Shown here: one piece after another, positions 34,754 through 58,153 of the stretch
Layout of the letters: each line of letters starts with the position of its first letter
Position numbering within the stretch: position 1 is the stretch's first letter
Assembly: GCF_017569205.1 (NCBI RefSeq)
Contig: NZ_CP071870.1
Span: forward strand, 3,224,001-3,288,000
DNA length: 64,000 nucleotides
Reading direction: 5' to 3'
Source of the DNA: Propioniciclava sp. MC1595
GTDB taxonomy: Bacteria; Actinomycetota; Actinomycetes; Propionibacteriales; Propionibacteriaceae
Made by a program: the position numbers and the translations under genes
Notes under the pieces: model-generated
What the model saw: only the letters and a program-made list of their open reading frames with translations
Told to the model about the DNA's origin: nothing
Databases searched by the model: none

Positions 34754-34768
34754 CACCCGCACCGGGTG
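34754..34768 (+). promoter_or_regulatory. CACCCG-N3-CGGGTG site before DUF1269-glsA-ATPase
   Basis: CACCCG CAC CGGGTG, perfect arms. A CACGAT -10 box (34792-34797) starts 31 bp after its centre, predicting a transcript from about 34805. Confidence 0.6.
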
Positions 34769-34848
34769 GTGACAGGCCGGGCATCCGTGGACACGATGGA
34801 CACAGACACCCCCGCTCAGACCCGCGGGGCTGGGAAGAGAGGCAACAC

Positions 34849-35331
34849 ATGTCGGAACTCATCATCATCGGTTACGACGACCACCTGCAGGCTGAGAAGG
34901 CGCACGACCGCGTCCTCGAGCTGCAGCGCGACCACATCGTGAAGCTCGCCGGCCTCGCGGTCGTCCGCGTGGACGACGACGGCAAGAAGCACGTCGACAC
35001 CCCGGCCAAGGGCCTCGTGGGGACCGGCGCGGCGTCCGGCGCCCTGTGGGGCATGCTCATCGGGCTGCTCTTCCTCGTGCCCGGCGTCGGCCTGGTCCTG
35101 GGTGGCCTCTGGGGCGCGCTCATGGGCCGCCTGGGCAAGGCGGGCATCGACGACGCGTTCCGCGACCGAGTCGAGGGACTCCTGGAGCCCGGCAAGGCGG
35201 CCGTGGTCGTGCTCGCCACCAAGCTGACCGAGGACAAGTTCGCCGCCAGCATGGGCGAGTTCGGCGGCACCGTGCTGAAGACGTCGCTGTCTGACGAGGA
35301 CGAGAAGGCCCTGGCCGAGGAACTCGCCTGA
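34849..35331 (+). CDS. DUF1269 membrane-associated protein
   Basis: 160 residues. ELIIIGYDDHLQAEKAHDRVLEL starts the DUF1269 domain; a glycine-rich membrane hairpin follows (GLVGTGAASGALWGMLIGLLFLVPGVGLVLGG). Members are general-stress proteins of unknown action. GAAGAGAGG lies before the ATG. First gene of an operon with glutaminase (5-bp gap) and the P-type ATPase-like gene. Confidence 0.82.
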   Translation: MSELIIIGYDDHLQAEKAHDRVLELQRDHIVKLAGLAVVRVDDDGKKHVDTPAKGLVGTGAASGALWGMLIGLLFLVPGVGLVLGGLWGALMGRLGKAGIDDAFRDRVEGLLEPGKAAVVVLATKLTEDKFAASMGEFGGTVLKTSLSDEDEKALAEELA

Positions 35332-35336
35332 GTCCC

Positions 35337-36314
35337 ATGCCAGCCACCGGGTTCGTCTCGACCGGACACCTGCCCGCCGCCGCGTCCGTGGCGGCGGCGG
35401 TGCGGGAGGCCCACGCGCGGTTCCGGGGCACCTCAGACGGCAGCCCGTCGACGGTCTACCCGGCGCTGGGCCGCGCCGACCCGGACGCCTTCGGCATCTG
35501 CCTCGTCGACGTGGACGGGGAGTCCCACGCTGTCGGGGCCGTGGACACGCCCTTCACGATCATGAGCGTCGCGAAGCCGTTCGTCTTCGCGCTCGCCTGC
35601 CGCGCCCGGGGTGCGGAGCGCGTGCGTGAGCTGGTCGGCGTCGACGCGACCGGCCTGCCCTTCAACTCGGTCGCGGCCGTGGAGGGCAGCCCGGACGGCC
35701 GCACCAACCCGATGGTGAACGCGGGGGCGATCCAGACGACGGCCCTCGTCCCGGGCGCGACGCCCGACGAGCGGTGGGCCGCCATCTCCGACGGACTCTC
35801 CGCCTTCGCCGGACGCCCCCTCGAGCTGGACGCCGAAGTGTACGCGTCGGCGTCCGCCACCAACGACGTCAACCGGGCGCTCGCCTGGCTGCTGAACGTC
35901 CGCGGCAGGATGACGGGGGACCCGGACGTGGCGCTCGACCTGTACACGCGGCAGAGCGCCCTGGCGGTGACCGCGCGCGACCTGGCGGTGATGGGGGCCA
36001 CGCTCGCCGACGGAGGGGTGAACCCGCTGACGAAAGAGCAGGTGCTGCCCGCCGAGCTGTGCCACCACGTGCTGGCGGTCATGGTGGTCGCCGGGCTGTA
36101 CGAGAGCTCCGGCGACTGGTTCTACCGCGTCGGGTTGCCCGCCAAGAGCGGCATCGGCGGCGGCATCGTCACCGTGTCCCCCGGCAAGGGCGGCCTCGGC
36201 ACGTACTCCCCACCGCTGGACGCCGCCGGCAACAGCGTCCGCGGGCAGCTCGTGGCACGCCACCTGTCCGCCGGGCTGGGGCTGGACCTGCTGGCGTCCG
36301 CCCCGGCGCCGTGA
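35337..36314 (+). CDS. glsA: Glutaminase A
   Basis: 325 residues of the serine-dependent beta-lactamase-like glutaminase family; converts L-glutamine to glutamate and ammonia. The S-x-x-K pair is Ser77/Lys80 (TIMSVAKPF), with NPMVNAGAI, ASATNDVNRALAWLL, YTRQSALAVTARDLA and the VGLPAKSGIGGGI loop all in place. Released ammonia can buffer acid, as shown for E. coli YbaS, and the stress-type neighbours fit that use. Confidence 0.9.
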   Translation: MPATGFVSTGHLPAAASVAAAVREAHARFRGTSDGSPSTVYPALGRADPDAFGICLVDVDGESHAVGAVDTPFTIMSVAKPFVFALACRARGAERVRELVGVDATGLPFNSVAAVEGSPDGRTNPMVNAGAIQTTALVPGATPDERWAAISDGLSAFAGRPLELDAEVYASASATNDVNRALAWLLNVRGRMTGDPDVALDLYTRQSALAVTARDLAVMGATLADGGVNPLTKEQVLPAELCHHVLAVMVVAGLYESSGDWFYRVGLPAKSGIGGGIVTVSPGKGGLGTYSPPLDAAGNSVRGQLVARHLSAGLGLDLLASAPAP

Positions 36315-36327
36315 CGAGGGGGCTGGC

Positions 36328-38724
36328 ATGGCGGGCACGTTCACCGGCCTGACCGAGTCCGAGGCACGGGTCCGGCTCGCAGCCGGCCAGGACAACACCA
36401 CGAACCTCAAGCCGCTGCGCACCCTGCACCAGGCCCGCCGGGAGAGCATCTTCACGGTGTTCAACCTGAACTTCGTGGGCCTCGCCCTGATCCTGGTGCT
36501 GTTGTCGGAGTGGATCGGCGCGGCCCTGACGATCCTGCTGTTCGCGATCTCGCTGTCGCTGCGCACGCTGCAGGAGTCGCTCGCCGCGAGACGCATCGCG
36601 GCTGTGCGGGACGCCGCGCACGTCCGCGCCACCGTCATCCGCGACGGACGCCCCCGGCTGGTCGACAGCGACCACATCGTGCCCGGGGACCTGCTGGTCG
36701 TCTCCCCGGGCGACCAGTTCCAGGTCGACGGCGTCGTGGCCGCCGGCAGCGTGCTGGTCGACGCCTCAGTCGTCACCGGACGCCGCGGCTGGACCCGCTG
36801 CCAGGCCGGCGACGAGGTGTTCGCGGGCAGCGTCTGCCTGTCGGGCAAGGGCCGCTACGTGGCCACGCGCGTCGGTCCGGACCGGACGATCCACGCGCGC
36901 CTGGCCCAGCGGACGGCGCTGGCGTCGCGACCCACCCCGCTGGAACGCCTCGTGGCGAAGATCCTCACGGCCCTGCTCGTCGTCGTCGTGGTGTACGCGA
37001 CCATCCTCCTGGCCAAGTACTTCCGCCTCGACGTGGGCGAGCCGGGCGACGCCTTCGTGGACGCCGCCCCGGTCATCTTCTCGCTGGCCCCCACCGGCCT
37101 GTACCTCATGATCATCGTCTCCTACGCCATCGGCACCGCCGACCTGGCCCGGATCGGGGCGGTGGTGCAGAGCGCCCGGTCGGTGGAGCTCCTCGCCGAG
37201 TCGACCGTGCTGTGCGTCACCGACGTCGGCCTGCTGTCGGGCACGTCGATGCGCGTCGAGCCGCTGCCGCGGCCCGAGGACGCCGGGGACGAGGCCTGGC
37301 CGGACCCCGCCGAGTTGCACCGCATCCTGGGGGACATAGGGCGCAGCACGTCCCAGAGCACGCCCGTCTCCGCGATCGTCGCCCGGTCGTTCGAGGGCGA
37401 GGGGCGGGCCCTCGTCGTGGAGGCACCCCACCTGGCCACCCTTGGCTGGACGGGCCTGGCCTTCGACGACCCCGACGACCCCCACCTGTACGTGATCGGC
37501 GAGCCCCGCGTCTTCGGCGTCCCGTCGGCCGCCGACGAGGCGCTGGTCCTGGCGCGGGGTCCAGTCGACGCCCCCCTCGCGGACGCCGACGGCCGACCTC
37601 ACCTGCCCGCCGGGCTCGTGCCGCTCTGCGTGGTCGAACGCCGCCGCCACCTCCACCCGGACGCCCCGGCCGTGGTGCGCGACTTCGTGGCCTCCGGCGT
37701 CCGGCTCAAGGTGTTCTCCACCGAGGATCCCGACGCGGTGCTCGTCACGCTGCGCGAGGCCGGGCTCACGGCGTCCGACGAGCGTGACCTGCTGCCCGGC
37801 GGCGGGCTCTCCCGCTCCGGGCTCGAGGCTATCCCGCGCGAGCAGTGGGCGGCCGCCGCGCGCGACCACCGCCTCTTCGGCGGGCTGACCCCCGACCAGG
37901 TGGGCGAACTCGTGGCCCTGCTGCGCGCCGGCGGTGACCGCGTGACCGTGGTGGGTGACGGCCTGAGCGACCTGCCCGCGATGCAGGAGGCCCACCTGTC
38001 GGTGGCCCAGCAGGCGAGCTCGCAGGCCGCGCTGGGCCTGGCCGACATCGTGCTGCTGAACGACTCCCCCGGCGTGCTGCTGTCGGTGCTCCACCGCGGT
38101 CAGGCGATCGTGCGCGGCCTGCTCGACGTGATGAAGCTCAACCTCTCCATGGTGGTCTGCTCGGCGTTGCTGATCGGGTTCGTGCGCCTGTTCGGCGTGG
38201 GGTTCCCCTATGTGGCGGGGCAGGGGTCGATCATCTCGATCCTCGCGGTCACGATCCCGTCGGTGCTGCTGCCGCTGTGGGCGCGACCGGGGCCGGTCTC
38301 GAGCCGGCGGTACCCGCTGGTCCTGGCCCGGTTCGTCGTCCCGGCGGGGGTGCTGCTCAGCCTGGCCACGTTCGGCGTCTACCTCGTGTTCGTGTCACGC
38401 ACGTCCGACGTGCGGCTGGCCCAACTCGCCGTCACCTACACGCTGCTCTACGCGGGGCTGGCGTTGTCGGTGCTGGTCCAGCCGCCGCGGCTCCGCCGCC
38501 CCGTGCGGGCCGGCGCCGCCCCGGCCCGCGACTGGCGGGCCACCGTGCTGGCGGCGACCCTGGCGCTGGTGGGCACGCTGGTGCCCCTGGTGCCGCTTGC
38601 CCGCCGCCAGTACCGGATCGACTTCCTGCCGCACCCGACCGACTACCTCATCGTGCTCGGGGCGGTCGCCGGCTGGGCGCTCGTGCTGCACCTCGTCTGG
38701 CGTGCCTTCCCGCGCGTCGATTGA
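36328..38724 (+). CDS. P-type ATPase-like protein (CtpE scaffold) with degenerate catalytic motifs
   Basis: 798 residues, the length and layout of mycobacterial CtpE (Ca2+-type P-ATPase): actuator domain, M4 region, P and N domains, and at least eight membrane spans. The catalytic signatures are broken. TGES of the actuator is TGRRG (150-154). The phosphorylation motif DKTGTLT is DVGLLSG (Asp299 kept; Lys, Thr and Gly lost). PEGL of M4 is PTGL. GDGxND is GDGLSD near residue 543. The frame is intact and reads well, so this is probably a maintained pseudo-ATPase with a regulatory or binding role rather than an ion pump. Confidence 0.8.
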   Translation: MAGTFTGLTESEARVRLAAGQDNTTNLKPLRTLHQARRESIFTVFNLNFVGLALILVLLSEWIGAALTILLFAISLSLRTLQESLAARRIAAVRDAAHVRATVIRDGRPRLVDSDHIVPGDLLVVSPGDQFQVDGVVAAGSVLVDASVVTGRRGWTRCQAGDEVFAGSVCLSGKGRYVATRVGPDRTIHARLAQRTALASRPTPLERLVAKILTALLVVVVVYATILLAKYFRLDVGEPGDAFVDAAPVIFSLAPTGLYLMIIVSYAIGTADLARIGAVVQSARSVELLAESTVLCVTDVGLLSGTSMRVEPLPRPEDAGDEAWPDPAELHRILGDIGRSTSQSTPVSAIVARSFEGEGRALVVEAPHLATLGWTGLAFDDPDDPHLYVIGEPRVFGVPSAADEALVLARGPVDAPLADADGRPHLPAGLVPLCVVERRRHLHPDAPAVVRDFVASGVRLKVFSTEDPDAVLVTLREAGLTASDERDLLPGGGLSRSGLEAIPREQWAAAARDHRLFGGLTPDQVGELVALLRAGGDRVTVVGDGLSDLPAMQEAHLSVAQQASSQAALGLADIVLLNDSPGVLLSVLHRGQAIVRGLLDVMKLNLSMVVCSALLIGFVRLFGVGFPYVAGQGSIISILAVTIPSVLLPLWARPGPVSSRRYPLVLARFVVPAGVLLSLATFGVYLVFVSRTSDVRLAQLAVTYTLLYAGLALSVLVQPPRLRRPVRAGAAPARDWRATVLAATLALVGTLVPLVPLARRQYRIDFLPHPTDYLIVLGAVAGWALVLHLVWRAFPRVD

Positions 38725-38745
38725 CCCCGCTTCAGCAGCGCCGCC

Positions 38746-39555
38746 TCAGCCGCGCTTGAGGCGGGCGGCCGTCGCCCCGTCCGCGCGCCGCAGCTCGAGG
38801 TTGTCCCCCTCGACGCTGACGGTGGCCGCCGACTCCAGGGCGGCGACCAGGGCGGCCTCCTGCTCCATGACGCCGGCCGGCTCGGCGCACGCCATCCGCG
38901 TCGACATGAAGGGCCCGAGCTTGATCGCGGTCCCGTCGAGCGTGTAGCCGCTGTTCAGCCGGTTGCAGCCCGCGGTGCCGCTCACCGAGTCGTCGGTGAA
39001 CTCGAACGTCGGCGTCGTGCCCTCGATCGGGCTCACCACGGCGGAGGCGCCGTCGTGGTAGCCGAGCACCTGCCACGTGCCGGCCAGTTCCTCCGACTGC
39101 GCGGAGAACGCGACCAGCGCCTTGCCCGCCTCGTCGCTCAGGGTCAGCCGGTCGGCCGCCAGCGCGAAGGTGCGCGCGGCGCCCAAGGAGGTCAGGAACG
39201 CCGCCTCCTGCGCCATGACGGCCTCGTCGCACGCGATCATCGTGGACGCGACGGCCGCGTCGATGCGGATCTCGGTGCCCGTCGTGGAGTACCGGGTGGT
39301 GAAGCGGTTGCAGCCGCCCGAACCCGTCAGCGCGCCATCCGCGCCGAACGCGGCCGTCAGCGTGCTGTCGGCGGCGGGCGGCGCACCGTCGAGGTCCGCC
39401 ACCTCCCACCGCGTGTCCGCCAGGGGCGACGCGGGCGTGGTCGGCTCCGGCGTCCGGGCCGGCTCGGGCGAGGCCACCCCACCGGCACAGGCCGTGGTGG
39501 CCAGCGCCACCAGCAGCGCGAGGGCGCCCACCCGGCGGATCCGTCCTCTTGTCAT
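38746..39555 (-). CDS. Lipoprotein with two META (HslJ-like) domains
   Basis: 269 residues. Signal peptide with lipobox TTAC (Cys23), a short Pro/Thr linker, then two META domains, each with the hallmark SGGCNRF / AGCNRLNSGY and a later Cys-containing helix (MIACDEAVMAQE, RMACAEPAGVMEQE). META proteins such as HslJ are linked to heat shock and stress. It is exported and lipid-anchored. Its first ATG at 39555 follows a perfect GC palindrome. Confidence 0.83.
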   Translation of the reverse strand: MTRGRIRRVGALALLVALATTACAGGVASPEPARTPEPTTPASPLADTRWEVADLDGAPPAADSTLTAAFGADGALTGSGGCNRFTTRYSTTGTEIRIDAAVASTMIACDEAVMAQEAAFLTSLGAARTFALAADRLTLSDEAGKALVAFSAQSEELAGTWQVLGYHDGASAVVSPIEGTTPTFEFTDDSVSGTAGCNRLNSGYTLDGTAIKLGPFMSTRMACAEPAGVMEQEAALVAALESAATVSVEGDNLELRRADGATAARLKRG

Positions 39556-39575
39556 GTCGACCTCCCAATCTTCCG

Positions 39576-39608: not shown

Positions 39609-40643
<1,035 letters not shown>

Positions 40644-40646
40644 GGC

Positions 40647-42302
40647 TCAGCCCACGACCGGCAGGTAGCCCGGGCCGAGCGGGATGCCGAGCAGGAACCA
40701 CGCGAGGAACAGGACGGTCCAGACCACGAAGATCGTCACCGAGTACGGCAGCATCAGCGCCACCACGGTGCCGATGCCAGCCTTCCGCTGGTAGCGCGCC
40801 GCGATCGTGGCGATGAACGGCAGGTACACCATCAGGGGCGTCAGCGCGTTCACCGGGGAGTCGGCGAGCCGGTAGGCCGCCAGCAGGGTCTGCGGCGCCA
40901 CGCCCAGCCTCATGAACAGCGGCACGAAGATGGGCGCGAAGATCGCCCACTTCGGCAGCGCGCCCGGCATGATGAAGTCGAGCAGCACGATCACCACGAT
41001 GAAGCCCAGCAGCAGCGGCACCGCGCCGATGTTGGCCGTCTCGAGCAACTCCGCCAGCGCTCCGGCGAGCACGCGCGGCATGTTCGTCCAGTTGAAGAAC
41101 GCGATGAACTGGGCGATCATCAGCAGCATCAGCACCATGCCCCCCAGACCCGAGAAGGTCTTGGTGATGGCCTTGATCACGTCGCCGCTGCTCGTCATGG
41201 TGCGTGCGCCCACGCCGTAGCAGATGCCCGACACCAGGAACATCAGCATGATGATGAACAGCAGGCTGTCCATGAACGGCGAATTGCCGATGATGTTGCC
41301 CGTCTCGGGGTCACGCAGGGGCGCGCCCGGCGGGAAGGTGGCCAGCGCCACGATCGCCACCACCAGGCCGAACCCGATGAGCGCGAACCGGGAGCCGCGC
41401 TTGTCGGCCTCGGGGGCGATGTCGGCGGCGTCCGTGTGCCCGGCCGTGCCCTCGGACGGGTCCCATGTGCCCAACCGGGGCTCCACGATCTTCTCGGTGA
41501 CCACGGCCGCCGCGAACGCGAGGATCAGCGACATGGCGACCATGTAGTACCAGTTGGCCACGATCGTGATCGGCTCGCCGCCAGCCAGGGCGATCGCTTC
41601 GTTGGCGATCTCCGTGATCATCGCGTCCGTGGGCGTGAGCGAGATGTTGACCATGAAGATCGCCGCCACGCCGGCGAAGCCGGACGCCAACCCGGCCAGC
41701 GGGTGCCGGCCGACACTGGCGAACGCGGCCGCCGACAGCGGGATCAAGATGAGGTAGCCGGCGTCGGAGGCGACCGACGACAGGACGCCCACCAGGATCA
41801 GGATGAAGCTGAGCGCCCAGCGGGGCGAGGCGCCCACCAGCTTGCGGATGAGCGAGCCCAGCAGCCCCGACTCCTCGGAGACCCCGGCGCCCATCATCGC
41901 GATGAACGTGACCGCCACGACGCCAAAGCCCGCGAAGTTGCTGACGAAGGAGGAGAAGATGAACCGGATGCCCTCAGTCGAGAGCAGGCTCTTGATCGGG
42001 ATCGTCTCCTCGACGATCGTCCAGTCCGCCTGGTAGGGCCCCTCGGGCGCGATCATGCCCGGCTGGGTGGTGTCCTCGTAGTAGTCGTGCTGCGGGGCCC
42101 CCTGCTCCACCGGGACGGCGATCTGCTCGGTGATGGAGACCCCGGCCAGGGCGAGCCCCCACGACAGCGCGATGATCAGCAGGATGAGGTACCCGAACAT
42201 CAGCGCCGGGGGCGGCACCTTGTTGCCCAGCCGCTCGATCGCGGCGAGCATCCCCTTCTCGGGCGGGCCGGACGCCTCGACCGTCGGCTCGGCGGTGCTC
42301 AT
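40647..42302 (-). CDS. AbgT-family p-aminobenzoyl-glutamate/peptide transporter
   Basis: 551 residues, twelve to thirteen membrane spans. Recognised by PPPALMFGYLILLIIALSW, SSVASDAGYLILIPLSAAAF, NISLTPTDAMITEIANE and SPVNALTPLMVYLPFI, all typical AbgT sequences. Members import p-aminobenzoyl-glutamate or export sulfonamides. Here it is coupled (ATGA) to an M17 aminopeptidase instead of the abgAB hydrolases, so short peptides may be its cargo. Confidence 0.88.
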   Translation of the reverse strand: MSTAEPTVEASGPPEKGMLAAIERLGNKVPPPALMFGYLILLIIALSWGLALAGVSITEQIAVPVEQGAPQHDYYEDTTQPGMIAPEGPYQADWTIVEETIPIKSLLSTEGIRFIFSSFVSNFAGFGVVAVTFIAMMGAGVSEESGLLGSLIRKLVGASPRWALSFILILVGVLSSVASDAGYLILIPLSAAAFASVGRHPLAGLASGFAGVAAIFMVNISLTPTDAMITEIANEAIALAGGEPITIVANWYYMVAMSLILAFAAAVVTEKIVEPRLGTWDPSEGTAGHTDAADIAPEADKRGSRFALIGFGLVVAIVALATFPPGAPLRDPETGNIIGNSPFMDSLLFIIMLMFLVSGICYGVGARTMTSSGDVIKAITKTFSGLGGMVLMLLMIAQFIAFFNWTNMPRVLAGALAELLETANIGAVPLLLGFIVVIVLLDFIMPGALPKWAIFAPIFVPLFMRLGVAPQTLLAAYRLADSPVNALTPLMVYLPFIATIAARYQRKAGIGTVVALMLPYSVTIFVVWTVLFLAWFLLGIPLGPGYLPVVG

Positions 42303-43792
42303 GGCTCGCCTCGGGGCACCCGGAAGTTGAGGGCGAGGTCGACCAGCAGGCGGGCCCCGAACCCCGTCGTGCCCTTGTTGCGCCACTTCACCGCGGAGCC
42401 CGATTGGGCGGTACCGGCGATGTCGATGTGCGCCCAGGGCACGCCGCCCACGAACTCGTTGAGGAACAGCGCGGCCGTGATCGACCCGGCGTTCGGGCCG
42501 CCCATGTTGCGCAGGTCGGCGATGCCGGAATCCAGCTCTCCGCGGTAGCGCTGCGCCAGGGGCAGCTCCCACACCGGCTCGTCGACCCGCTCGGCAGACG
42601 CCTTGACCTGGTCGACCAGGCCCGCGTCGTTGCCCAGCACACCGGCGATCTCCGTGCCGAACGTGCGCAGGCACGCACCCGTGAGGGTGGCGATGTCGAC
42701 GATGGCGTCCACAGGCTCCTCGGTGGCGAGCACGATGGCGTCAGCCATGACGAGGCGACCCTCGGCGTCGGTGTTGATGACCTCGACGGTCTTGCCGCCT
42801 CGCATCACGATGATGTCGCCCATCCGCAGTGCCGACCCGCCGGGCATGTTGTCGGTGCACATCAGGTAGCCGGTGACCTGGCAGGTGCAGCCCAGGTCGC
42901 GCAGCGTCGTCATCGCGCCGAGGATCGCGGCCGCACCGGTCATGTCGTTCTTCATGGTGGCGTGCACCTCGTCACCCGGCTTGAGGGCCAGGCCGCCGGC
43001 GTCGTACATGATGCCCTTCCCGACGAGCGCCAAGCGGCCGGCCGGCTCGCCCTCGGGGCGGTAGACGAGCTTGACCATGACGGGCGGCTCCGTGCTGCCC
43101 AGGTTCACGCCGAGCAGGCCGCCGCAGCCCAGTTCGACGAGCGCCTGCTCATCGAAGACCTCGACCTCCAGCCCGGCCGCAGAGCCCACCTCGGTGGCAA
43201 CCTCGCCGAGCCGGGTGGCGGTGAGGATTCCGCCCGGCAGCCCGGAGAGGTCGCGGGTCAGCTTGGTCGCGCGCACGAGGACCTCGCCCCGCGCCAGGCC
43301 CGCCGACAGCGCATCGTTGCGCACGGGGTCCGCCACGAGGGTCAGCGAGGCCAGCATCGCATCGGGGCCGTCGGCGCCGAGCCGGTGGACGTAGCGGGCG
43401 AGCGCCGCGCCCTCGACGGCGGCCGCCGCGGCGTCGTCATCCGGCACCGCCGTCTCGGGCAGCACCAGGGCCAGGTCGACCTGGCCGGGGACCGCTCGAG
43501 CGAAATGGGAGGCCGCGTCCCGCAACACCGCGGCGTCGGCGTTCGCCCGGTCACCGGCGCCGACCAGGACGACCACCGACTCCGCGCCGGGCAGCACGAG
43601 GGTCTTCCCCGGCTCCGGTGCGAAGCCGAGTGCGGCCACCCGGGCCGCATCCAGGCCGGACGCCGTGGGCGGCTCCTCCCCGGTGAACACGAGGTGGCCG
43701 ACTGCTCCCCCGGACGGGGCGACGTCGCTGACGGACAGCCCCAGCTGGCGTCGGGGAAGGGTGAACGGGGGGTACGGCGCTCTGTGTGTCAT
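42299..43792 (-). CDS. pepA: M17 leucyl aminopeptidase
   Basis: About 497 residues. The C-terminal catalytic domain shows VGKGIMYDAGG (metal Lys and Asp), MKNDMTGAAAILGAM, NTDAEGRL with its Asp and Glu ligands, and the RTFGTEIAGVLGN loop. It removes N-terminal residues from peptides in the cytoplasm. The family usually has ITFDSGG and DMGGAA, so the active-site loops are slightly diverged. Start at 43792 is supported by TAGCGT 7 nt upstream (leaderless). First gene of pepA-abgT-htrA. Confidence 0.88.
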   Translation of the reverse strand: MTHRAPYPPFTLPRRQLGLSVSDVAPSGGAVGHLVFTGEEPPTASGLDAARVAALGFAPEPGKTLVLPGAESVVVLVGAGDRANADAAVLRDAASHFARAVPGQVDLALVLPETAVPDDDAAAAAVEGAALARYVHRLGADGPDAMLASLTLVADPVRNDALSAGLARGEVLVRATKLTRDLSGLPGGILTATRLGEVATEVGSAAGLEVEVFDEQALVELGCGGLLGVNLGSTEPPVMVKLVYRPEGEPAGRLALVGKGIMYDAGGLALKPGDEVHATMKNDMTGAAAILGAMTTLRDLGCTCQVTGYLMCTDNMPGGSALRMGDIIVMRGGKTVEVINTDAEGRLVMADAIVLATEEPVDAIVDIATLTGACLRTFGTEIAGVLGNDAGLVDQVKASAERVDEPVWELPLAQRYRGELDSGIADLRNMGGPNAGSITAALFLNEFVGGVPWAHIDIAGTAQSGSAVKWRNKGTTGFGARLLVDLALNFRVPRGEP

Positions 43793-43805: not shown

Positions 43806-43828
43806 GGAATCGCGCGCCTGCGGGGCAT

Positions 43829-43843
43829 CACCCGTGGCGGGTG
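43829..43843 (-). promoter_or_regulatory. CACCCG-N3-CGGGTG site before pepA
   Basis: Best copy of the shared motif: CATCACCCG TGG CGGGTGATG is a perfect 9-bp inverted repeat (43826-43846). Its centre is 44 bp from the predicted start point and 31 bp from the -10 box. Confidence 0.65.
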
Positions 43844-43923
43844 ATGTGCCGTCCGGCCGGTGCGGGCAGGCTCACCGGTGGCAGCGGGGCGACCGCGGCC
43901 GCACGAGGGAAGGCCTGAGAACC

Positions 43924-48269: not shown

Positions 48270-48713
48270 TCAGTCCTTGGTGGGGCACCACGCATCCGGT
48301 CGCAAGTGGACCTCCCTCACCTCGAGGGCCATCTCCTCCAGCCGCGCGAGCACGGCGAAGAGGGCGTCCTGGTCCGCCACTGCCACCTCGAGCGTCGTGC
48401 ACACCGCCTCATCAAGCGACGCGGCGCCGAACTCGGGGGCGAGGTAGTCGGCCACGTAGCCCTCGACCTGGATGCGCGCGGTCGCGGAGGGGGCGCCGTT
48501 CGGCTGGCGTGGCAGCAGGCGTTCGACGTCCTCGACGGCCACCCCCGCCATGTGGAGTCGTTCGAGGAAGCCGAGGAGCGAGGCCATGTCGGGCACGGTC
48601 CCCCACAGCAACCGGGCGCCGGCGGCCGGGCTCTCGACGAAACCATCGAGTTCCTCGCGCACGGCAGAGGGCAGTTCGCCTCGGACACCGATCCGGACAT
48701 GGAGGGCGGTCAC
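48270..48713 (-). CDS. Unknown protein co-transcribed with the LuxR regulator
   Basis: 147 residues with no family I recognise. It appears to be two similar halves of about 70 residues (RIGVRGELPSAVREELDGFV...; IQVEGYVADYLAPEF...TTLEVAVADQDALFAVLARLEEMALEVREVHL), like a duplicated alpha/beta ligand-binding fold. I favour the GTG at 48713 because GACGAT lies exactly 7 nt upstream and the inverted-repeat site sits 44 bp away, as for pepA; the ATG at 48722 would overlap the -10. It may supply the signal for the regulator encoded behind it. Confidence 0.55.
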   Translation of the reverse strand: MTALHVRIGVRGELPSAVREELDGFVESPAAGARLLWGTVPDMASLLGFLERLHMAGVAVEDVERLLPRQPNGAPSATARIQVEGYVADYLAPEFGAASLDEAVCTTLEVAVADQDALFAVLARLEEMALEVREVHLRPDAWCPTKD

Positions 48714-48749
48714 GGTCCCCATCGTCACGGAGGTCCTGTCCGGCCGCAT

Positions 48750-48764
48750 CCCCCTTGTCGGGTC
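48750..48764 (-). promoter_or_regulatory. CACCCG-N3-CGGGTG-like site before the LuxR operon
   Basis: CCCCCT TGT CGGGTC, an imperfect copy whose flanks ATC...AT match the other sites. Centre 31 bp before the GACGAT box and 44 bp before the GTG at 48713. Suggests self-control of the regulator. Confidence 0.45.
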
Positions 48765-48796
48765 ATTCGGAGAGCGACCTCCCCGTTACCTTTCTG

Positions 48797-50327: not shown

Positions 50328-51893
50328 TCAGAGCAACGCACCGATCACGCTGAAGACAATCAGAATCCCCAGGATGATCCCGGCCAAGGGCAGCAGCCAC
50401 TTGAGGTAGGTGTCGAAGCGCACTTTCGCCAGGACCAGGGAGGCCATCAGGATTGCATTGGTGGGCATCATCATCGACAGCCAGCCGCCGAAAGAACTGT
50501 AGATCGTCACCACGAGGGAACGGTCCACGCCAGCGAAGTCCGCCAGTGGTGCGAGGATCGGCATCACCAACGCCATGCCGGCTGAACCGGCCCCGACGAG
50601 GAATCCCAGCGGTAGGGAGATCACCGCAAGCAACAGGGTGAAGACGATCTCGCTGCGGCCCGCCACGAAACCCTCCATGGCGTTGAGCACTGTGTCGAGG
50701 GTCTGGGTGTTGGTCAGGATCACCGCCACCGCGCGCGCGAACGCCACCAGGAACGCGGGACCGGTGAAGTCCACAATCCCCTTCATGAAGTGCTTGCTGA
50801 TCCCCGCCTCGCCCAGCCCACCCACGAGGCCGGCGATGAGCGCCATCACCATGAACATCGCGGTCAGCTCCGGCAGCCACCAGCCCAGCTCCCACGGGAA
50901 CGGGTTGACCAGGGTCTCGTGCGTGACCGGGTCGACGGCGGTGTTGTTCAGGATCGAACCCCAGGGCACGATCGAGAAGGCGAGCAGCAGGAAGGCGAAG
51001 GCTGTCAAGGCCAGGACGATCTTCTGCCGCGTCGTGAGGGGTTCGATGACGGCGGAGTCGGCGCTGCGCGCCACCTCGGCGTCGATCGCAGAAATGCCGA
51101 CGAGGGACGCCTCCGGATCGGCCTTCACCCGCCGGGCGTAGCGCAGCGTGTAGACAATCATCACGGTGGTGACAACCACGAGCGTCACCAAGCGCAAGAC
51201 GATGCCGTCGCCGATGGAGATCCCGGCGGCGTCGGAACCGATGCCGATGCGGAAGGGGGTGACCGTGGAGCCGATCACCCCCATCGAGGGTGCCACCCCC
51301 AGGACCGCGACCGCCACCAACCGGTCATAGCGCAACGCGAGCATCAGTGGGACCACCAATGCGTAGAACCCGAGTTGTTCGTCGGACCAGGTCATCACCG
51401 AGCCCAGCAGAGCGAACAGGATGCTCAGCACGATGATGAGCACGTCCCCGCGGGCACGCAGCCGGAAGGCGAGCAGCGAGATTCCGCGGTCCATGGCTCC
51501 GGTGGCGAACACCACCGTCATGAAACCGCCGATGGCGAGGATGAACAGGAAAACCTGCGCCGAGCCGAACAGCACGCCGCTGTTGAACGGCCCCACGTGT
51601 CCGGCCGCATTCTGGATGCCGTACAGACCGTTGATCGGCGACAGCAGCAGGTCCTGGATCCGTTCGGCTGTGTCGAGCGGGGACGGCACCTCATGGTAGG
51701 AGCCCGGCACGGGACGCCCGTCGACGTCGAACTCATACTCGCCCGAAGGGATGAAGAAGGCGGCGAGCCAGACCGCCACGATCACCCCGACCAGAATGCT
51801 CAATGCTGAAGGGAAGGCACTCTTCTTCTCCTCAGCCGGCTCGACTGAGGGATCCGCTGCCTTTTGGTCGATGGTCATCTCATCGGGGGTCAT
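50328..51893 (-). CDS. YfcC-family (C4-dicarboxylate/arginine-ornithine antiporter-like) transporter
   Basis: 521 residues, about twelve membrane spans. Signature segments: FPSALSILVGVIVAVWLAAFFIPSGEYEF, FLFILAIGGFMTVVFATGAMDRGI, PFRIGIGSDAAGIS and PLGFLVGAGSAGMALVMPILAPLADFAGV. The substrate of YfcC proteins is poorly known; amino acids or peptides are likely given the M20 peptidase gene with which it overlaps (ATGA at 51890). The IS110 element lies directly after the stop. Confidence 0.82.
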   Translation of the reverse strand: MTPDEMTIDQKAADPSVEPAEEKKSAFPSALSILVGVIVAVWLAAFFIPSGEYEFDVDGRPVPGSYHEVPSPLDTAERIQDLLLSPINGLYGIQNAAGHVGPFNSGVLFGSAQVFLFILAIGGFMTVVFATGAMDRGISLLAFRLRARGDVLIIVLSILFALLGSVMTWSDEQLGFYALVVPLMLALRYDRLVAVAVLGVAPSMGVIGSTVTPFRIGIGSDAAGISIGDGIVLRLVTLVVVTTVMIVYTLRYARRVKADPEASLVGISAIDAEVARSADSAVIEPLTTRQKIVLALTAFAFLLLAFSIVPWGSILNNTAVDPVTHETLVNPFPWELGWWLPELTAMFMVMALIAGLVGGLGEAGISKHFMKGIVDFTGPAFLVAFARAVAVILTNTQTLDTVLNAMEGFVAGRSEIVFTLLLAVISLPLGFLVGAGSAGMALVMPILAPLADFAGVDRSLVVTIYSSFGGWLSMMMPTNAILMASLVLAKVRFDTYLKWLLPLAGIILGILIVFSVIGALL

Positions 51894-53254
51894 CGCACTG
51901 CCCACCTCTCTGCAATCTCGTGGAAGAACAGGGCCTCGGCGAGGGTGGCCCTGCGCCACTCGTCGATGAGCACACGCTCGTCGGGCCCGTGGATATTGGC
52001 GAAGCTGTCGGTAGCACCGAAGACGAAGATCGCTGCTTCGGGGATGGCGTCGGCGATGGCCTTGACCAGCGGGATCGCCCCTCCCGTGGCGGTCTGTACG
52101 GTCGTGCCCGACCACGCGGCGTCCATGGCTGCCACCATGGCGTCCCCGGCCGCCCCGGTCGGCGACGTGCGAAAGCCGTCACCCGTCGCCCCGGCGGTGA
52201 TGGTGAGGGGGACCCCGAAGGGTCGCTGAGCCGCCAGGTGAGCGACCACGGCGGCCTGCGCCTCCGCAGCGGGTTGCTCCGGGTGGACGCGCACGTTGAG
52301 GAGCGCCCGCGCCTGCGCCTGGACCGACGCCGGTGCGCCGTCTACTGCGGGAGCGTCGATCCCCAGGACGGTGATGGCGGGTCCGCTCCAGATCTTCGAG
52401 CCGAGACCGCCGGTCCCCACGATCGACAGGCCGGGCTCGATCTCGGCCAGCGCCCGGAACTCCTCGTCGGTGTACGTCTCGCCAGGCCACTCTTCGCGGC
52501 GCAGGCCAGCCACGGCGACGTTGCCGTGGTCGTCCCAGAGCGTCGTCAGGGCTCGCAGCAACACGATCAGGGCGTCCGGGGCGGCGCCACCGTATTGCCC
52601 GGAGTGCTTGCCACCGGCCAAGGTGCGAACCTCGACGGTGATGCGGGCGTCGCCGCGCAGGGACACGGTCAGCGACGGCTGCCCTGCCCGGATACTGCCA
52701 CCGTCGGCGATGAGGATGGCATCGGCGCGGAAGTGCTCGGGATGCCGCGACGGGAATCCCTCCTCGAGCGGACTGCCAACCTCCTCCTGGCCCTCGATCA
52801 GCACCTTGATGGTCACCGGCGGTCTGCCACCCCAGGCACGCAGTGCGCCGACATGAACCAGGACGTTGGCCTTGGTGTCGGCCGCCCCCCTTCCGAAGAT
52901 GGCGCCGTCACGCTCGGTAGCCTCGAACGGCGGCGAGGTCCACTCCGCCTCGTCACCGGCCCCGACGATGTCGTAGTGGCTGTAGAGCAGGACGGTGGGA
53001 GACCCTTCCGGGCCGGGGATGGTTCCGGTGATGATGGGCGCGGTTCCGGGGAGCTCGAGATCCCGGATGTCCCTGACACCGGCGTCGCGGAGCAGGTCCA
53101 CCACGGCGTCGTGTGCTGCCAGGATCGCGGGCCGGGTGTGTGGGGGGTAACCCCACTCGGAAACGGACGGGATGGCGACCAGCCGGGCAAGATCATCCTT
53201 CAACCCCGGCATGAGCGCGGCGACCGCTTCGGTGAGGTTGGACTGCATTGTCAT
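51890..53254 (-). CDS. M20-family metallopeptidase (dipeptidase-like)
   Basis: 454 residues. Metal and catalytic motifs: LLYSHYDIVGAG (His, Asp), GRGAADTKAN, IEGQEEVGSP (Glu-Glu), and a late His in IHGPDE. It probably splits dipeptides or N-acyl amino acids. ATG at 53254 is supported by GACCCT 7 nt upstream (leaderless) and the regulatory site beyond it. With the transporter it forms a second peptidase-transporter pair like pepA-abgT. Confidence 0.86.
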   Translation of the reverse strand: MTMQSNLTEAVAALMPGLKDDLARLVAIPSVSEWGYPPHTRPAILAAHDAVVDLLRDAGVRDIRDLELPGTAPIITGTIPGPEGSPTVLLYSHYDIVGAGDEAEWTSPPFEATERDGAIFGRGAADTKANVLVHVGALRAWGGRPPVTIKVLIEGQEEVGSPLEEGFPSRHPEHFRADAILIADGGSIRAGQPSLTVSLRGDARITVEVRTLAGGKHSGQYGGAAPDALIVLLRALTTLWDDHGNVAVAGLRREEWPGETYTDEEFRALAEIEPGLSIVGTGGLGSKIWSGPAITVLGIDAPAVDGAPASVQAQARALLNVRVHPEQPAAEAQAAVVAHLAAQRPFGVPLTITAGATGDGFRTSPTGAAGDAMVAAMDAAWSGTTVQTATGGAIPLVKAIADAIPEAAIFVFGATDSFANIHGPDERVLIDEWRRATLAEALFFHEIAERWAVR

Positions 53255-53291
53255 GCCGCTCAGGGTCCCACGCTGCGTGCGCGCTGATCAT

Positions 53292-53306
53292 CCCCCGAAG
53301 GGGGTG
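53292..53306 (-). promoter_or_regulatory. CACCCG-N3-CGGGTG-like site before M20-yfcC
   Basis: CCCCCG AAG GGGGTG; centre 44-45 bp before the ATG at 53254 and 31-32 bp before the GACCCT box (53262-53267). Confidence 0.5.
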
Positions 53307-53324
53307 AGGAATGGTCGAACCTGG

Positions 53325-53855: not shown

Positions 53856-55295
53856 TCACAGCAGGTTCGAGAAGAGCCGGGACGCCGAATTGCGCAGGCG
53901 GCGTCCGCGACCCCACGACCGGACCTCGTCGAGGGTGAGTTCCCGGCAGTCGCGCAGGTCGTCGAGGAACAACTGCTCGTGTCGGGCCGCGACCTCGGGG
54001 TCGTAGACCCAGACCATCAGCTCCTTGTTGATGCGCAGGCTGCGGATGTCGAGGTTGAGCGTGCCGACCGCGCACGCCGTGCCGTCGATGGTCAGCGACT
54101 TTGCGTGGAAGAACCCCTTCTCCCATTGCCAGATGCGGCCGCCGGCGGCCAGGAACGGTTCGAAGAAGGACTCCGCGGCCCACCACGGGATCTTCTTGTC
54201 GATCCAGGACGTCGTCATCAGGTCGACCCGGACGCCCCCCGCCGCGGCGTTGACGAGGGCGTCCAGCGTGCTCTGGTCGGGGACGAAGTAAGGGGACTGG
54301 AGCAGGACGCGGTCCCGCGCGCCCGAGATGGCGAGCTGGTAGGAGCGGGTCAGCGTGTGCCAGGGGTCGTCGTAGCCGTGGTGGACGGTGTGCACCATGA
54401 TGTCCCCGCTGGGCAGCGACGGGTCGGGGTAGTAGCGCGCGTCGAACAGGTCCTCCCCGTGCGCCTCCAGCCACCGGATGTCGAAGAGCTTCTCCAGGTC
54501 CGCCACGCCGGGGCCGGTGATCCGCATGCCGGTGTCGCGCCACCCCGGGAACCGCTTGCCGCCGTCGATGTACTCCTGCGCGACGTTGAAGCCGCCGGTG
54601 TGGCCGATCTCGGCGTCCACGACCGTGATCTTGCGGTGGTTGCGGTAGTTCAGCCGGGCGAGGCCCGTCACGTCCGCCTTCACGATGGCCCCGGCCTCGG
54701 CCAGGCGCTTCATCTCGTCCTTGGGGTGTCTCAGGCAGCCCAAGAAGTCGTTGAGGATGCGCACCTCGACGCCGGCCGCGAGCCGGTCGAGCAACACCTC
54801 GGTGATGCGTGCGGTGAGCGCGTCCTGCTTCCAGATGAAGTAGCTCATGTGAATGAAGCGCTGCGCCCCGGCCAGGTCGGCGAGGAGGACGTCGAAGTAT
54901 TCCTCGCCGTTGCCGTGGAAGTCGCACGTGCGCACCGGCAGCGGAGGGGTCGCCAGCTTGTGCTCGACGAGATGGATGTTCCGCCGCACCCAGGGCCGGT
55001 CCTCGTCCGACGCGAGGGCGCGGGCCCGCGACCGGTGGGGTCGGTACACGGTGGGCATGAACCGCCCCACCGCCTCCCGGACGCGCCGGGTCGCGGGCGA
55101 CCGCTGCGTGATCTCGGGCCAGTTGCGCCCGAAGAAGAAGTACAGCACCAGGCCGAGCACGGGCAGCGCGATCAGGACGAGCAGCCAGGCCAGCGCCGCG
55201 GTGGGGTTGCGGTCCTCGCTGACGATGAACACGACCACGGCCAGCCAATAAGCCAGCAGCACGGCGTCGATCAGCAACCAGAGTGTCAGGTCCAT
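53856..55295 (-). CDS. cls: Cardiolipin synthase (PLD superfamily)
   Basis: 479 residues: two N-terminal membrane spans (LIDAVLLAYWLAVVVFIV; LAWLLVLIALPVLGLVLYFFF) and two HxK PLD motifs, His220/Lys222 (NHRKITVVD) and His397/Lys399 (FHAKSLTID). It joins two phosphatidylglycerols into cardiolipin. Last gene of the operon hdeD - small membrane gene - cls, 10 bp after the small gene. Confidence 0.9.
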   Translation of the reverse strand: MDLTLWLLIDAVLLAYWLAVVVFIVSEDRNPTAALAWLLVLIALPVLGLVLYFFFGRNWPEITQRSPATRRVREAVGRFMPTVYRPHRSRARALASDEDRPWVRRNIHLVEHKLATPPLPVRTCDFHGNGEEYFDVLLADLAGAQRFIHMSYFIWKQDALTARITEVLLDRLAAGVEVRILNDFLGCLRHPKDEMKRLAEAGAIVKADVTGLARLNYRNHRKITVVDAEIGHTGGFNVAQEYIDGGKRFPGWRDTGMRITGPGVADLEKLFDIRWLEAHGEDLFDARYYPDPSLPSGDIMVHTVHHGYDDPWHTLTRSYQLAISGARDRVLLQSPYFVPDQSTLDALVNAAAGGVRVDLMTTSWIDKKIPWWAAESFFEPFLAAGGRIWQWEKGFFHAKSLTIDGTACAVGTLNLDIRSLRINKELMVWVYDPEVAARHEQLFLDDLRDCRELTLDEVRSWGRGRRLRNSASRLFSNLL

Positions 55296-55305
55296 CGTTT
55301 CCGCT

Positions 55306-55485: not shown

Positions 55486-55504
55486 GGCGGGGATCCTTCG
55501 GGGG

Positions 55505-56065
55505 TCAGGCAGTGGGGTCCGCGCCGGGCTTGCCCGGGCGGACCCTGCCGACGGCGATGAGCGTGAGTCCCTCGAGCAGCGTCTGGACGGCCAACAGCGT
55601 TCCGAGCAGCATGAGGGTGGCGGTTCCGAGGTTGAACAGTACGTAGAACCCCAGGCCCAGCGAGACCAGCCCGCTGATGAAGAGCACCACCTTGCCCTCG
55701 CTCTCCCGGAACGCCCACACCATGCGCGTCAGGCCGGCGGCGAAGAACGCCATGCCGGCCGCCAAGGTCAGCGCCAGGGCACCGACCACCGGGTTGCGCA
55801 GGATGAACAGGCCCATCACGGTCAGGAAGGCCCCGCCGAGGACGGCCGAGAAGAACCCGCCCGAGCGGATCCGGAACAGGGAGCCGATGAGCAGCACGAC
55901 GCCCGAGATCAGGTTGGTCCAGCCGATGACAAGCACCTGGAAGGCCGTGGCCCAGACGGCGTTCCCGAGGAGGACGATGCCGGCCGCGACGAGCAGCAGG
56001 CCGAGGATGACGTCCCACGCGGTGCGCTTGGCGACCGGGGTGGTGGTGCTGGTGGTCGTCGACAT
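55505..56065 (-). CDS. HdeD-family (DUF308) membrane protein
   Basis: 186 residues, six short membrane spans in three pairs (DVILGLLLVAAGIVLLG; WTNLISGVVLLIGSL; GALALTLAAGMAFFAAGLTRMVWA). HdeD helps acid resistance at high cell density in E. coli. AAAGGA precedes the ATG. The gene heads the operon with cls and follows a CACCCG-N3-CGGGTG site. Confidence 0.85.
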   Translation of the reverse strand: MSTTTSTTTPVAKRTAWDVILGLLLVAAGIVLLGNAVWATAFQVLVIGWTNLISGVVLLIGSLFRIRSGGFFSAVLGGAFLTVMGLFILRNPVVGALALTLAAGMAFFAAGLTRMVWAFRESEGKVVLFISGLVSLGLGFYVLFNLGTATLMLLGTLLAVQTLLEGLTLIAVGRVRPGKPGADPTA

Positions 56066-56123
56066 GGGAGTCCTTTCTGCGACGCGATGGTCTCAGTCTG
56101 GTTGCCGGTCGTCGCTGGGGAAC

Positions 56124-56138
56124 CACCCGCACGGGGTG
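56124..56138 (-). promoter_or_regulatory. CACCCG-N3-CGGGTG site before hdeD-cls
   Basis: CACCCG CAC GGGGTG. A CAGACT box (56095-56100) starts 31 bp after the centre, predicting a 22-nt leader with AAAGGA. Confidence 0.55.
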
Positions 56139-56193
56139 ATCTGTCCGGCGAGTGAGATTCTGCGTGTCGCGCGGGGTGCCAGTTGTTCTCTGG

Positions 56194-57138
56194 TCATGCC
56201 GGGGTCGCGTCCGTGGGCACCGGGGCGTGGGCGGCGACGTGTCCGGGATGGGTGGCGATCCACGCGGCGACGACCAGCACGAGGCTGGCGAACAGGTTGA
56301 GGAACAGCATCAGCACGATGACGCTGCCGAAGACGGCCACGGCCGCGCTGTCGGCGAAAGATCCCAGCAGGAAGGTGGCGGCGTACTCGAGCGCCGCCAG
56401 GCCGATCGACCCGATGGCCGCGCCCTGCGCGCGCACGGGCACCGGAACCCGCTGCTCGGGCATCACGGTGAACAGGAACCAGAACAGGGCGAACCCACCG
56501 CCCGCCGTGACGACCAACGACGCCAGGGCCGACCCGAGCTCGGGGACCGGCACGCCGACCACGGCTAGGAGCCGCCCGACCAAGGAACGCAGCGACGTCA
56601 CCATGCTGCTGGCCAGCATGGTGAGCAGGACGAGCAGGAACAGCCCGAACAGCATGCCGAGTTCGCGCGCCATCTGCCGCAGGAACCCCACCGCCCCCTG
56701 GCCGACGTCGAGGTCCGCCTCGTCCGGCTGAACCTCAAAGGCCGGCCGGAGTTGCACGCGGACGCCGACCTGCAGGTGCATCACCCACTTGGCGCCCGCC
56801 CAGGCGGCACCGACGAGGCCGACGATGCCGACGGCCTGCCAGCTGTGGAAGGCCTGGTCGATGATGGTGGCCACCTGGTCGCCGAGCACGCCGCCGGCGT
56901 CCACGTCGAGGTTCGCGACGAGCCAGGCGCGGACGAGGTCGGCGAGGTTGGGCCTCAGGATGGTCGCTGTCAGTCCCAGCGCCGCGAACGCGACCATCAG
57001 GATCGGCACCATCGACAACACCGAGAAGTACGTGATCGCCGCCGCGAACTGGATACCGAACCGGCCGAGGAACCGCTGCGCCGCCCGGACGCCGTGGGCG
57101 ACGAACGGCCACGCCAGAACGGCCTCGACCACCTTCAC
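56194..57138 (-). CDS. YihY/BrkB-family inner membrane protein
   Basis: 314 residues with six membrane spans and the family signature GRFGIQFAAAITYFSVLSMVPILMVAFAALG near residue 30, and FLFLVLLTMLASSMVTS / GGGFALFWFLFTVMPEQRVPVP-type segments later. Once annotated as RNase BN; true role is unknown, possibly transport. The GTG at 57138 lies 2 bp after the DMT gene stop and lacks a clear ribosome-binding site, so coupling is likely. Confidence 0.78.
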   Translation of the reverse strand: MKVVEAVLAWPFVAHGVRAAQRFLGRFGIQFAAAITYFSVLSMVPILMVAFAALGLTATILRPNLADLVRAWLVANLDVDAGGVLGDQVATIIDQAFHSWQAVGIVGLVGAAWAGAKWVMHLQVGVRVQLRPAFEVQPDEADLDVGQGAVGFLRQMARELGMLFGLFLLVLLTMLASSMVTSLRSLVGRLLAVVGVPVPELGSALASLVVTAGGGFALFWFLFTVMPEQRVPVPVRAQGAAIGSIGLAALEYAATFLLGSFADSAAVAVFGSVIVLMLFLNLFASLVLVVAAWIATHPGHVAAHAPVPTDATPA

Positions 57139-57140
57139 GT

Positions 57141-58031
57141 TCAGGACGCCGCGGAGACCGGCACCGCGTTCGTGTGGCGGGAGAGCAGGGCGACGCCGCT
57201 CATGGACACGGTCGCGCTGACCAGCATGAGGGCCACGCCGAGGGCGGTGTAATTGACGCCCTCGCCGAGGACCGCGACGCCGAAGACGACCGAGGCGAGT
57301 GGCCCGACGACGTTCACGGCTCCGACGACCGACTCCGCTGCGCCGGTGGCGTAGCCCTGCTGAACGAACGCGGTGCCGATGAGGGCCCCGACGAGGACCA
57401 GGACGGCGAGCACCCAGAAGATGACCGAGCCACGCCACTCGCCCCGCGCGACGTACTCACCGAGTGCCTTGACGACGCCGGCCTCGAACCCGAAGATCGC
57501 AGCGCCGGCGGACGCCCAGGCGAGGCTGCGCAGGCGGGTGGGGCCGAAGCGCCCCAGCAGGGCGATGCCTGCCGCCAGCGCGTACCCGATGATGGTGCCG
57601 GTGATGAGCCCGGTCTCGACGAACTCCTCGCGGTCGGGCCCCTGCCAGATGGCCAGCAACGCGAAACCGCTGGTCCCGGCGATGGTGATCGCCACGGCAC
57701 GCCAGGTGACCGGCGAGACGGATCGCCGGCTCAGCCGGCTCGTCAGCAGCACCGTCCACGGCACGGACAACACCGCCAGCGGCTGGGTGATCGTGACCGG
57801 GGCCAGCATGAGGGCCCCGATGGCGACGACGGCGCCGGCGCCATTCGCGGCCAGGCCCAACCACCAGCGCGGCGAGCGGATGAGCGACCGGAACTGGTCG
57901 CCGCTGAGTTCCGTCTTCGCACCGGACCCGCCCTGTTGGCCCACCTCGTGGTGCTGCACGGTGGCCGCGATCGCGATGAGCAGGGAAGAGACCACCATCA
58001 GCGCGACAGCGAGGGGGATGTTCTGGGGCAT
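57141..58031 (-). CDS. DMT-superfamily transporter (NIPA/EamA-like)
   Basis: 296 residues, nine to ten membrane spans in two repeats (NIPLAVALMVVSSLLIAIAATVQH; VVAIGALMLAPVTITQPLAVLSVPWTVLLTSRL; VFGVAVLGEGVNYTALGVALMLVSATVSM). The pattern SSLLIAIAATVQH...APVTITQPL is that of NIPA-like DMT proteins; magnesium or small-molecule transport is possible. GGAGG 8 nt before the ATG at 58031. Confidence 0.75.
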   Translation of the reverse strand: MPQNIPLAVALMVVSSLLIAIAATVQHHEVGQQGGSGAKTELSGDQFRSLIRSPRWWLGLAANGAGAVVAIGALMLAPVTITQPLAVLSVPWTVLLTSRLSRRSVSPVTWRAVAITIAGTSGFALLAIWQGPDREEFVETGLITGTIIGYALAAGIALLGRFGPTRLRSLAWASAGAAIFGFEAGVVKALGEYVARGEWRGSVIFWVLAVLVLVGALIGTAFVQQGYATGAAESVVGAVNVVGPLASVVFGVAVLGEGVNYTALGVALMLVSATVSMSGVALLSRHTNAVPVSAAS

Positions 58032-58138
58032 GAGGCGTTCCTCCGACGACACCAACGACGACACGAACCGGCTGCGCCGGTGGCGCGGCCGTACCAGCCG
58101 TGCCGCATGACTTTTCCACCATCGGGCCCCGGGGGCAT

Positions 58139-58153
58139 CACCCGCGGAGGGTG
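58139..58153 (-). promoter_or_regulatory. CACCCG-N3-CGGGTG site before the DMT-brkB pair
   Basis: CACCCG CGG AGGGTG. AAAAGT (58110-58115) starts 31 bp after the centre, predicting a leader of about 71 nt. It is also downstream of the hydrolase operon end, so a terminator role cannot be excluded. Confidence 0.45.

Follow-up and report, generated by a model that had tools for sequence, protein, structure and literature searches.

The subject of this analysis is a palindromic DNA box, and the genes that it precedes, in a 64,000-nucleotide stretch of Propioniciclava sp. MC1595 (the window; it spans 3224001-3288000 of a genome that forms one contig of 3.43 Mb). Six copies of the box lie in front of a cluster of genes that includes a large MalT-like ATPase (LAL), and the reading favoured here, to which we would give a probability of roughly 0.75, is that a LAL activator encoded in the cluster uses the palindrome as its operator and controls its own operon among others. 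The genes of the cluster are as follows.

34450..34680, minus strand: small LapA-domain membrane protein (Pfam match of 24 bits, cut-off 28)
34849..35331, plus strand: DUF1269 protein
35337..36314, plus strand: glutaminase A
36328..38724, plus strand: P-type ATPase
38746..39531, minus strand: META-domain (HslJ-like) protein, last of the M17 operon
39609..40643, minus strand: HtrA/Deg-like serine protease
40647..42302, minus strand: AbgT-family transporter
42299..43792, minus strand: M17 leucyl aminopeptidase-like protein
43936..45486, plus strand: CitMHS/DASS-type transporter (alternative start 43924)
45490..48219, minus strand: LAL regulator, the proposed activator (909 aa at the chosen start; MalT-like NTPase and LuxR-type helix-turn-helix, HTH)
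48270..48713, minus strand: small conserved protein of 147 aa upstream of the LAL, without Pfam or NCBIfam match
49002-50306: gene of an IS110-family transposase, separating the LAL and M20-YfcC operons
50328..51803, minus strand: DcuC/YfcC-type transporter
51890..53254, minus strand: M20 dipeptidase-like protein
53856..55295, minus strand: cardiolipin synthase
55505..56065, minus strand: HdeD-like membrane protein (39.7 bits with the NCBIfam HdeD model, cut-off 189)
56194..57138, minus strand: BrkB/YhjD-family membrane protein
57141..58031, minus strand: DMT/NIPA-type transporter

The likely operons are DUF1269-glutaminase-P-type ATPase, the LapA-domain gene, M17-AbgT-HtrA-like-META, CitMHS/DASS, small open reading frame (ORF)-LAL, M20-YfcC-like, HdeD-like-cardiolipin synthase and DMT-BrkB. 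The stress-type members are the HdeD-like protein, cardiolipin synthase, BrkB, HtrA and the HslJ-like protein, and the feeding members are the glutaminase and the peptidases with their transporters, so that the cluster would seem to answer envelope or acid stress and to join this to the use of peptides and glutamine, a role suggested by these families. Elsewhere in the window, at 9943-11912 and 16550-16942, there are protein repeats that we take to resemble S-layer homology domains.

The box and its distance to the -10 hexamer

The box was scored as the 19-mer ATCACCCG-N3-CGGGTGAT, with at most three mismatches unless another limit is given. In the 64 kb there are exactly six matches, which are the six sites that had been picked out by eye in the original prediction; 100 dinucleotide shuffles of the window gave a mean of 0.57 and a maximum of three, and the reversed pattern gave one match. 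The putative operators, which as palindromes are given without strand, are listed below with the candidate -10 hexamers that flank them.

34752..34770: operator 1, centre 34761, one mismatch; between the divergent LapA-domain gene and DUF1269 operon; CACGAT 34792-34797 (plus), CATCAT 34729-34724 (minus)
43827..43845: operator 2, centre 43836, perfect; between the divergent M17 and CitMHS/DASS genes; TAGCGT 43805-43800 (minus), 7 nt, ATG 43792; CAGGCT 43867-43872 (plus)
48748..48766: operator 3, centre 48757, three mismatches; small-ORF/LAL operon; GACGAT 48726-48721 (minus), 7 nt, GTG 48713
53290..53308: operator 4, centre 53299 (53298 in the C5/G5 register), three mismatches; M20 peptidase/YfcC-like operon; GACCCT 53267-53262 (minus), 7 nt, ATG 53254
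56122..56140: operator 5, centre 56131, two mismatches; hdeD-cls operon; CAGACT 56100-56095 (minus)
58137..58155: operator 6, centre 58146, three mismatches; DMT-brkB operon; AAAAGT 58115-58110 (minus)

All six sites have an xAxxxT hexamer on the gene side at 31-32 nt from the centre, as had been proposed (31 nt for CACGAT, TAGCGT, GACGAT, CAGACT and AAAAGT; 32 nt for GACCCT). Operators 1 and 2, which lie between divergent genes, have a second hexamer on the opposite side (CATCAT at 32 nt facing the LapA-domain gene and CAGGCT at 31 nt facing the DASS/CitMHS transporter), so that the six promoters of the original prediction are all present but the count rises to eight candidates. Again as first described, 7 nt separate the hexamer from a start codon at 43792, 48713 and 53254. 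If transcription begins at that distance from the hexamer, the transcripts of these three promoters would have no leader. On the same assumption the centre of the box would fall at about -44, its spacing to the -10 hexamer being fixed at 31-32 nt.

The same geometry holds outside the window. In a set of 34 non-window rows (sites outside genes that face, within 250 nt, a gene belonging to a named family; 38 rows before near-identical ones were removed), the hexamer lies at 30-32 nt in 33, every other offset from 12 to 59 being represented in 0-4 rows, and the columns of this set read about ATGCCC at the -35 place. When the window and its relatives were taken together, the hexamer was found at 31-32 nt in 59/65 gene-facing sides, other 2-nt windows averaging 2.5/65. 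In these facing and non-facing counts, for family and class alike, near-duplicates (>75% identical), within-gene sites and stretch-end sites were dropped and a side was called facing when a gene start lies 38-130 nt away. The starts came from a simple ORF picker that missed or cut some genes, which means that some of the sides called non-facing do face real genes.

The outer bases of the box are required for this case, since a shorter 15-mer at no more than two mismatches is not enriched in the window (13 found, 18.8 expected), and the 19-mer and spacing controls were used accordingly. The reversed pattern is an imperfect control: TAG occurs in it, the codon bias that it encounters is another one, and it gave 11 matches against 58 even for an N2 version of the box. 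The controls relied on are therefore those in which the half-sites are kept and the spacer is varied.

Recurrence in the genome, the family and the class

Genome-wide there are 25 matches, of which 14 lie within genes as drawn by the ORF picker and 11 between genes. The original prediction had named an equal frequency in coding DNA as the finding that would speak against it. The reversed pattern yields 21 matches, so that lone weak matches mean little. Ten of the 11 intergenic matches fall in two clusters, six in the window and four in a paralogous cluster at 2.306-2.322 Mb, and one lies elsewhere. The latter holds META, protease, CitMHS, LAL, small ORF, DUF1269, glutaminase and P-type ATPase genes, and as the same kinds of genes and sites recur there, box and gene are for the most part paired as in the window. 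The small-ORF/LAL promoter of this cluster has a four-mismatch box at the place matching operator 3, with no hexamer at 29-33 nt on the gene side. The paralogous LAL itself (L001 14333-17342, ~2310.3-2313.3 kb) is split into two frames near the position of residue 283 of the window LAL, the window copy being open; it may be non-functional, or the split may be a sequence error. At L001 12333-12733 only the first 118 residues of M17 remain and AbgT was not found, while a perfect operator, TAGCAT and the leaderless ATG are kept.

Across the family, at least 38/198 genomes carry a LAL relative at E<1e-30, LAL counts being lower bounds because only 2 to 56 candidates were scored per genome (the search missed the LAL of G223). 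Related genomes are not independent, and the co-occurrence numbers for the family consequently describe rather than prove; in the spacer counts for LAL loci (17 stretches, and 41, 27 and 29 loci) near-duplicates were kept. In 17 stretches of 13-20 kb from 14 genomes around the closer LALs there are 23 matches with at most two mismatches and none to the reversed pattern; the same half-sites at all other spacers from 0 to 12 give six in total. A module of CitMHS, DUF1269, small ORF, LAL, glutaminase, AbgT, M17 and META genes recurs, with boxes before many of its operons. Near-exact sites (at most one mismatch) number 61 in the family, and 15 of them lie within 12 kb of a LAL, 0.16 being expected if they were scattered; such a site is present in 21/38 genomes with a LAL and in 20/160 without (Fisher 9e-8).

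Promoters chosen by protein, with no use of the motif, point the same way. Among 17 close homologues of the DUF1269 protein (15 genomes, the window's own included), 15 have a site upstream and 14 a hexamer at 31-32 nt; G058 has a four-mismatch site, and G082, whose only LAL relative is distant, has no site nearby within three mismatches. At 13 more distant DUF1269 loci the sites are weaker or missing. Of the 198 genomes, 13 have both a close DUF1269 protein (at least 64%) and a close LAL (E<1e-80), and two and two have one of them alone. When the LAL was the bait, the flanks (up to 1.5 kb) of 41 loci held 11 matches with at most two mismatches at N3 and five over 12 other spacers. Upstream of 27 distant LALs, eight cores (at most one mismatch) were found within 400 nt at a core spacer of N5, and none at 14 other spacers; at 14 close LAL loci, which have the small ORF or other genes in between, there was one core within 400 nt upstream.

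In the class, where at least 98/344 genomes have a LAL at E<=1e-40, 29 new LAL loci chosen without the motif contain 27 exact copies of TCACCC-N5-GGGTGA against two over 14 other spacers, and 23/29 have a match to the 19-mer. The hexamer again peaks at 31-32 nt, in 18/31 facing and 20/59 other sides, other offsets reaching at most two and five, respectively. DUF6325-like genes recur beside these loci (12 BLAST hits). In the order, matches of 46-47 bases that span palindrome, gap and hexamer occur in 7/391 genomes. Three of the seven belong to another family, and there the match stands before a DUF1269 gene in two and in the third between genes of the RDD family and DUF6325. Scans of the genome and its relatives, of the kind that had been suggested at the outset, find box and hexamer offset again in the paralogous cluster, in the family and at LAL loci of the class. 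As far as sequence can tell, the box is a real operator, widely conserved and with a fixed promoter geometry, which bears out the proposal of a common operator at a constant distance from the -10 box.

Two genomes have LAL islands with sites in unusual number. Around three LALs of G412 (L092-L093) there are seven in 32 kb, and G101 (L147) has eight in 20 kb that lean to CTCACC...GGTGAG, a variant that may reflect a different LAL subgroup.

The proposed reader of the box and its rivals

The cluster's LuxR-type protein had been named as the likely reader, and other genomes, protein-selected promoters and spacing controls support that choice, the protein turning out to be a LAL by its sequence. 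It has the architecture expected of a LAL, with a Walker A NTPase, a C-terminal LuxR-type HTH and a length of ~900 aa: Pfam finds GerE (4e-16) and AAA_22/AAA_16, that is, an NTP-binding N-terminus and a LuxR-type HTH at the C-terminus. In an alignment of seven LALs (out of nine taken up) the Walker A motif G-x-x-GTGKT is unchanged in 7/7 rows, and the HTH is among the best-conserved parts in close relatives. The best solved structure for the family profile is MalT (8bob, E 2e-48); the window protein scores 179.2 bits against the MalT equivalog model NF003420, below its cut-off of 537. A search of wider genome contigs gave a single distant match to the LAL, on a Caulobacterales contig (26% identity). 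Small conserved proteins of 136-162 aa, with two similar-looking halves, lie mostly just before or near the LAL (window, L001, L050, L051, L055, L056 and L060), and no Pfam match was found in the two copies tested; the LAL may have a partner in this protein, of 147 aa in the window.

Among regulators, it is the LAL that was seen to recur with the sites, and the box is very probably, judging from this company, the box of a LAL family. Activation is the likely mode, at a presumed position near -44. In the model that we propose, two HTH domains would bind the two half-sites, 11 bp or about one helical turn apart, and the bound protein would replace the missing -35 element and recruit RNA polymerase in the style of a class II activator, the site of which overlaps the -35 place close to -41.5. 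A signal would switch the LAL, and the 147-aa protein encoded in the same operon may assist. The symmetry of the site would let a single operator fire two divergent promoters.

Several observations weigh against this reading or limit it. The LAL is tied to the sites by where it lies and by the genomes that it shares with them, ties that a mere target of the true reader could show as well. No site is present in the short flanks of 24/41 LAL loci in the family (17/41 have one) nor at 6/29 LAL loci of the class. Of the 160 family genomes in which no LAL reaches E<1e-30, 20 hold a near-exact match. Nine of these 20 were opened, the match lying within genes in six and being intergenic in three; G070, G112 and G119 have such an intergenic site and no LAL was found in them, as is the case for G231 in the order. 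In LAL-bearing family genomes 22/37 near-exact sites have no LAL within 12 kb, and some are plainly within genes. Among 50 genomes of the order, a hand-picked set that includes three known positives, the contrast is weak, with a near-exact site in 6/17 genomes with a LAL (E<1e-30) and 5/33 without. The hexamer also occurs at 31-32 nt in 34/95 non-facing sides of the window and its relatives, a -35 element is absent anyway in many actinobacterial promoters, and the genome-wide count for the box (25) is close to that for its reversed pattern (21). Genome-wide, the N2 pattern has 58 matches at no more than two mismatches against 11 reversed, a figure that is hard to interpret for want of an N3 count at the same setting.

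One apparent exception was set aside: G223, one of the five genomes of the order just counted as being without a LAL, had seemed to be a LAL-less genome with sites, and its contig holds a LAL of 928 aa with two sites adjoining. A different contig of this genome (L161 3478-10277) carries five cores, of which three are exact and two are one mismatch away; the sites at 9528 and 10261 precede SHOCT, DUF1269 and BrkB genes. As these sites and the LAL are on separate contigs, the regulon may reach beyond the surroundings of the LAL.

The alternative that survives best, unlikely as we consider it, is that a NarL-type response regulator (a BldM-like orphan or a neighbour of the module) reads the sites, the LAL being merely a target. 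The Group I box of Streptomyces BldM, an activating regulator of NarL type that is a homodimer according to the authors, is TCACcCgnncGgGTGA (TCACCCG-N2-CGGGTGA; in the part of PMC4125116 drawn on here), and its half-sites, TCACCCG and CGGGTGA, are the same as those of the LAL-cluster box. The two differ in that BldM has 2 bp between its half-sites and the LAL-cluster box 3, and in that BldM, an orphan response regulator, serves development, the proposed reader here being a LAL. The spacing counts against a BldM-like reader: at no more than two mismatches N2 is absent from both the window and the paralogous cluster, where N3 gives five and four, and at the 29 class loci N2 has no exact match and three with at most two mismatches against 16 and 53 for N3. 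In these side-by-side counts the sites resemble the BldM box but fail its spacing. As to a neighbour of the module, a NarL-type response regulator accompanied by a kinase-like gene does lie beside it in G123, G114 and G013 (the kinase recognised by eye, Pfam having been run on the G123 copy only). When 15 candidates were scored per genome, orthologues of this regulator (at least 49% identity) were found in at least 4/15 close-LAL genomes, and the best relative in the window genome reaches 37%; with orthologues in so few of these genomes, it was rejected as a general reader. Still, our estimate for a LAL reader is not set higher since the regulators compared are only some of the proteins with a LuxR-type HTH and since, in data of this kind, a gene that is controlled can look like the one that controls.

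Slightly less probable still is that the LAL, or another protein, is a repressor that blocks the -35 region. The operator does cover the -35 place, and SCO6993, a characterised LAL, acts as a repressor on its targets and is bound to its own promoter as well, its authors having been unable to predict a consensus (in the portion of PMC9628970 consulted); the protected sequences, as quoted there, do not show the LAL-cluster box. Repression is hard to reconcile with the tight distance of 31-32 nt, found on almost every gene-facing side in the family set, divergent promoters included, and at the peak of the class set, since a blocking site would need no such phasing, and there is little to block at a -35 place that reads about ATGCCC. 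Finally, a chance likeness between GC-rich palindromes, which the unenriched 15-mer and the near-equal genome-wide counts of box and reversed pattern might suggest, is scarcely credible and is contradicted by the way the sites cluster, by the spacing controls, by the constant offset to the -10 and by the presence of the box in several families.

Known systems and wider meaning

Among systems with related readers, MalT of E. coli, whose boxes occur in several copies, has the same protein architecture as the window LAL, while the candidate targets of the cluster are not maltose genes. RamA is a small protein without an ATPase domain that has the LuxR-type HTH and G/C runs in its sites in common with the LAL-cluster system. 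A further point against a LAL as the reader is that the box of MalT, the best-known LAL, is short and asymmetric (GGA[TG]GA, as quoted in PMC9628970), unlike the palindrome. The RamA motif of C. glutamicum (A/T/C-GGGG-N or A/T/C-CCCC-N, with the leaderless target bca) is likewise not a long palindrome, as it appears in the excerpts of PMC4847777 covered. SCO0877 and SCO7173 share the LAL architecture, and no box is given for them in the portion of PMC3282765 covered, which counts 14 putative LALs in S. coelicolor. The original prediction had held that no such regulon is described; indeed, no description of the N3 box or its regulon was found in the open-licence papers searched, but the half-sites are those of the BldM box with one more bp between them.

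A wider proposal, about which we are rather less confident and which we rate at a little under even odds, is that these sites belong to a class-wide actinobacterial stress regulon run by LALs through a symmetric box at -44 that can fire two divergent promoters, with a half-site in common with BldM and kept apart from it by a one-bp spacer code. LALs are numerous in actinobacteria, and the consensus, the promoter geometry and a candidate gene set can here be read from sequence across many genomes. If the proposal is true, two LuxR-HTH proteins of different architecture would divide one half-site between them by spacing, and the one-bp difference from the BldM box poses the question of how differing LuxR-HTH proteins discriminate the same half-site.

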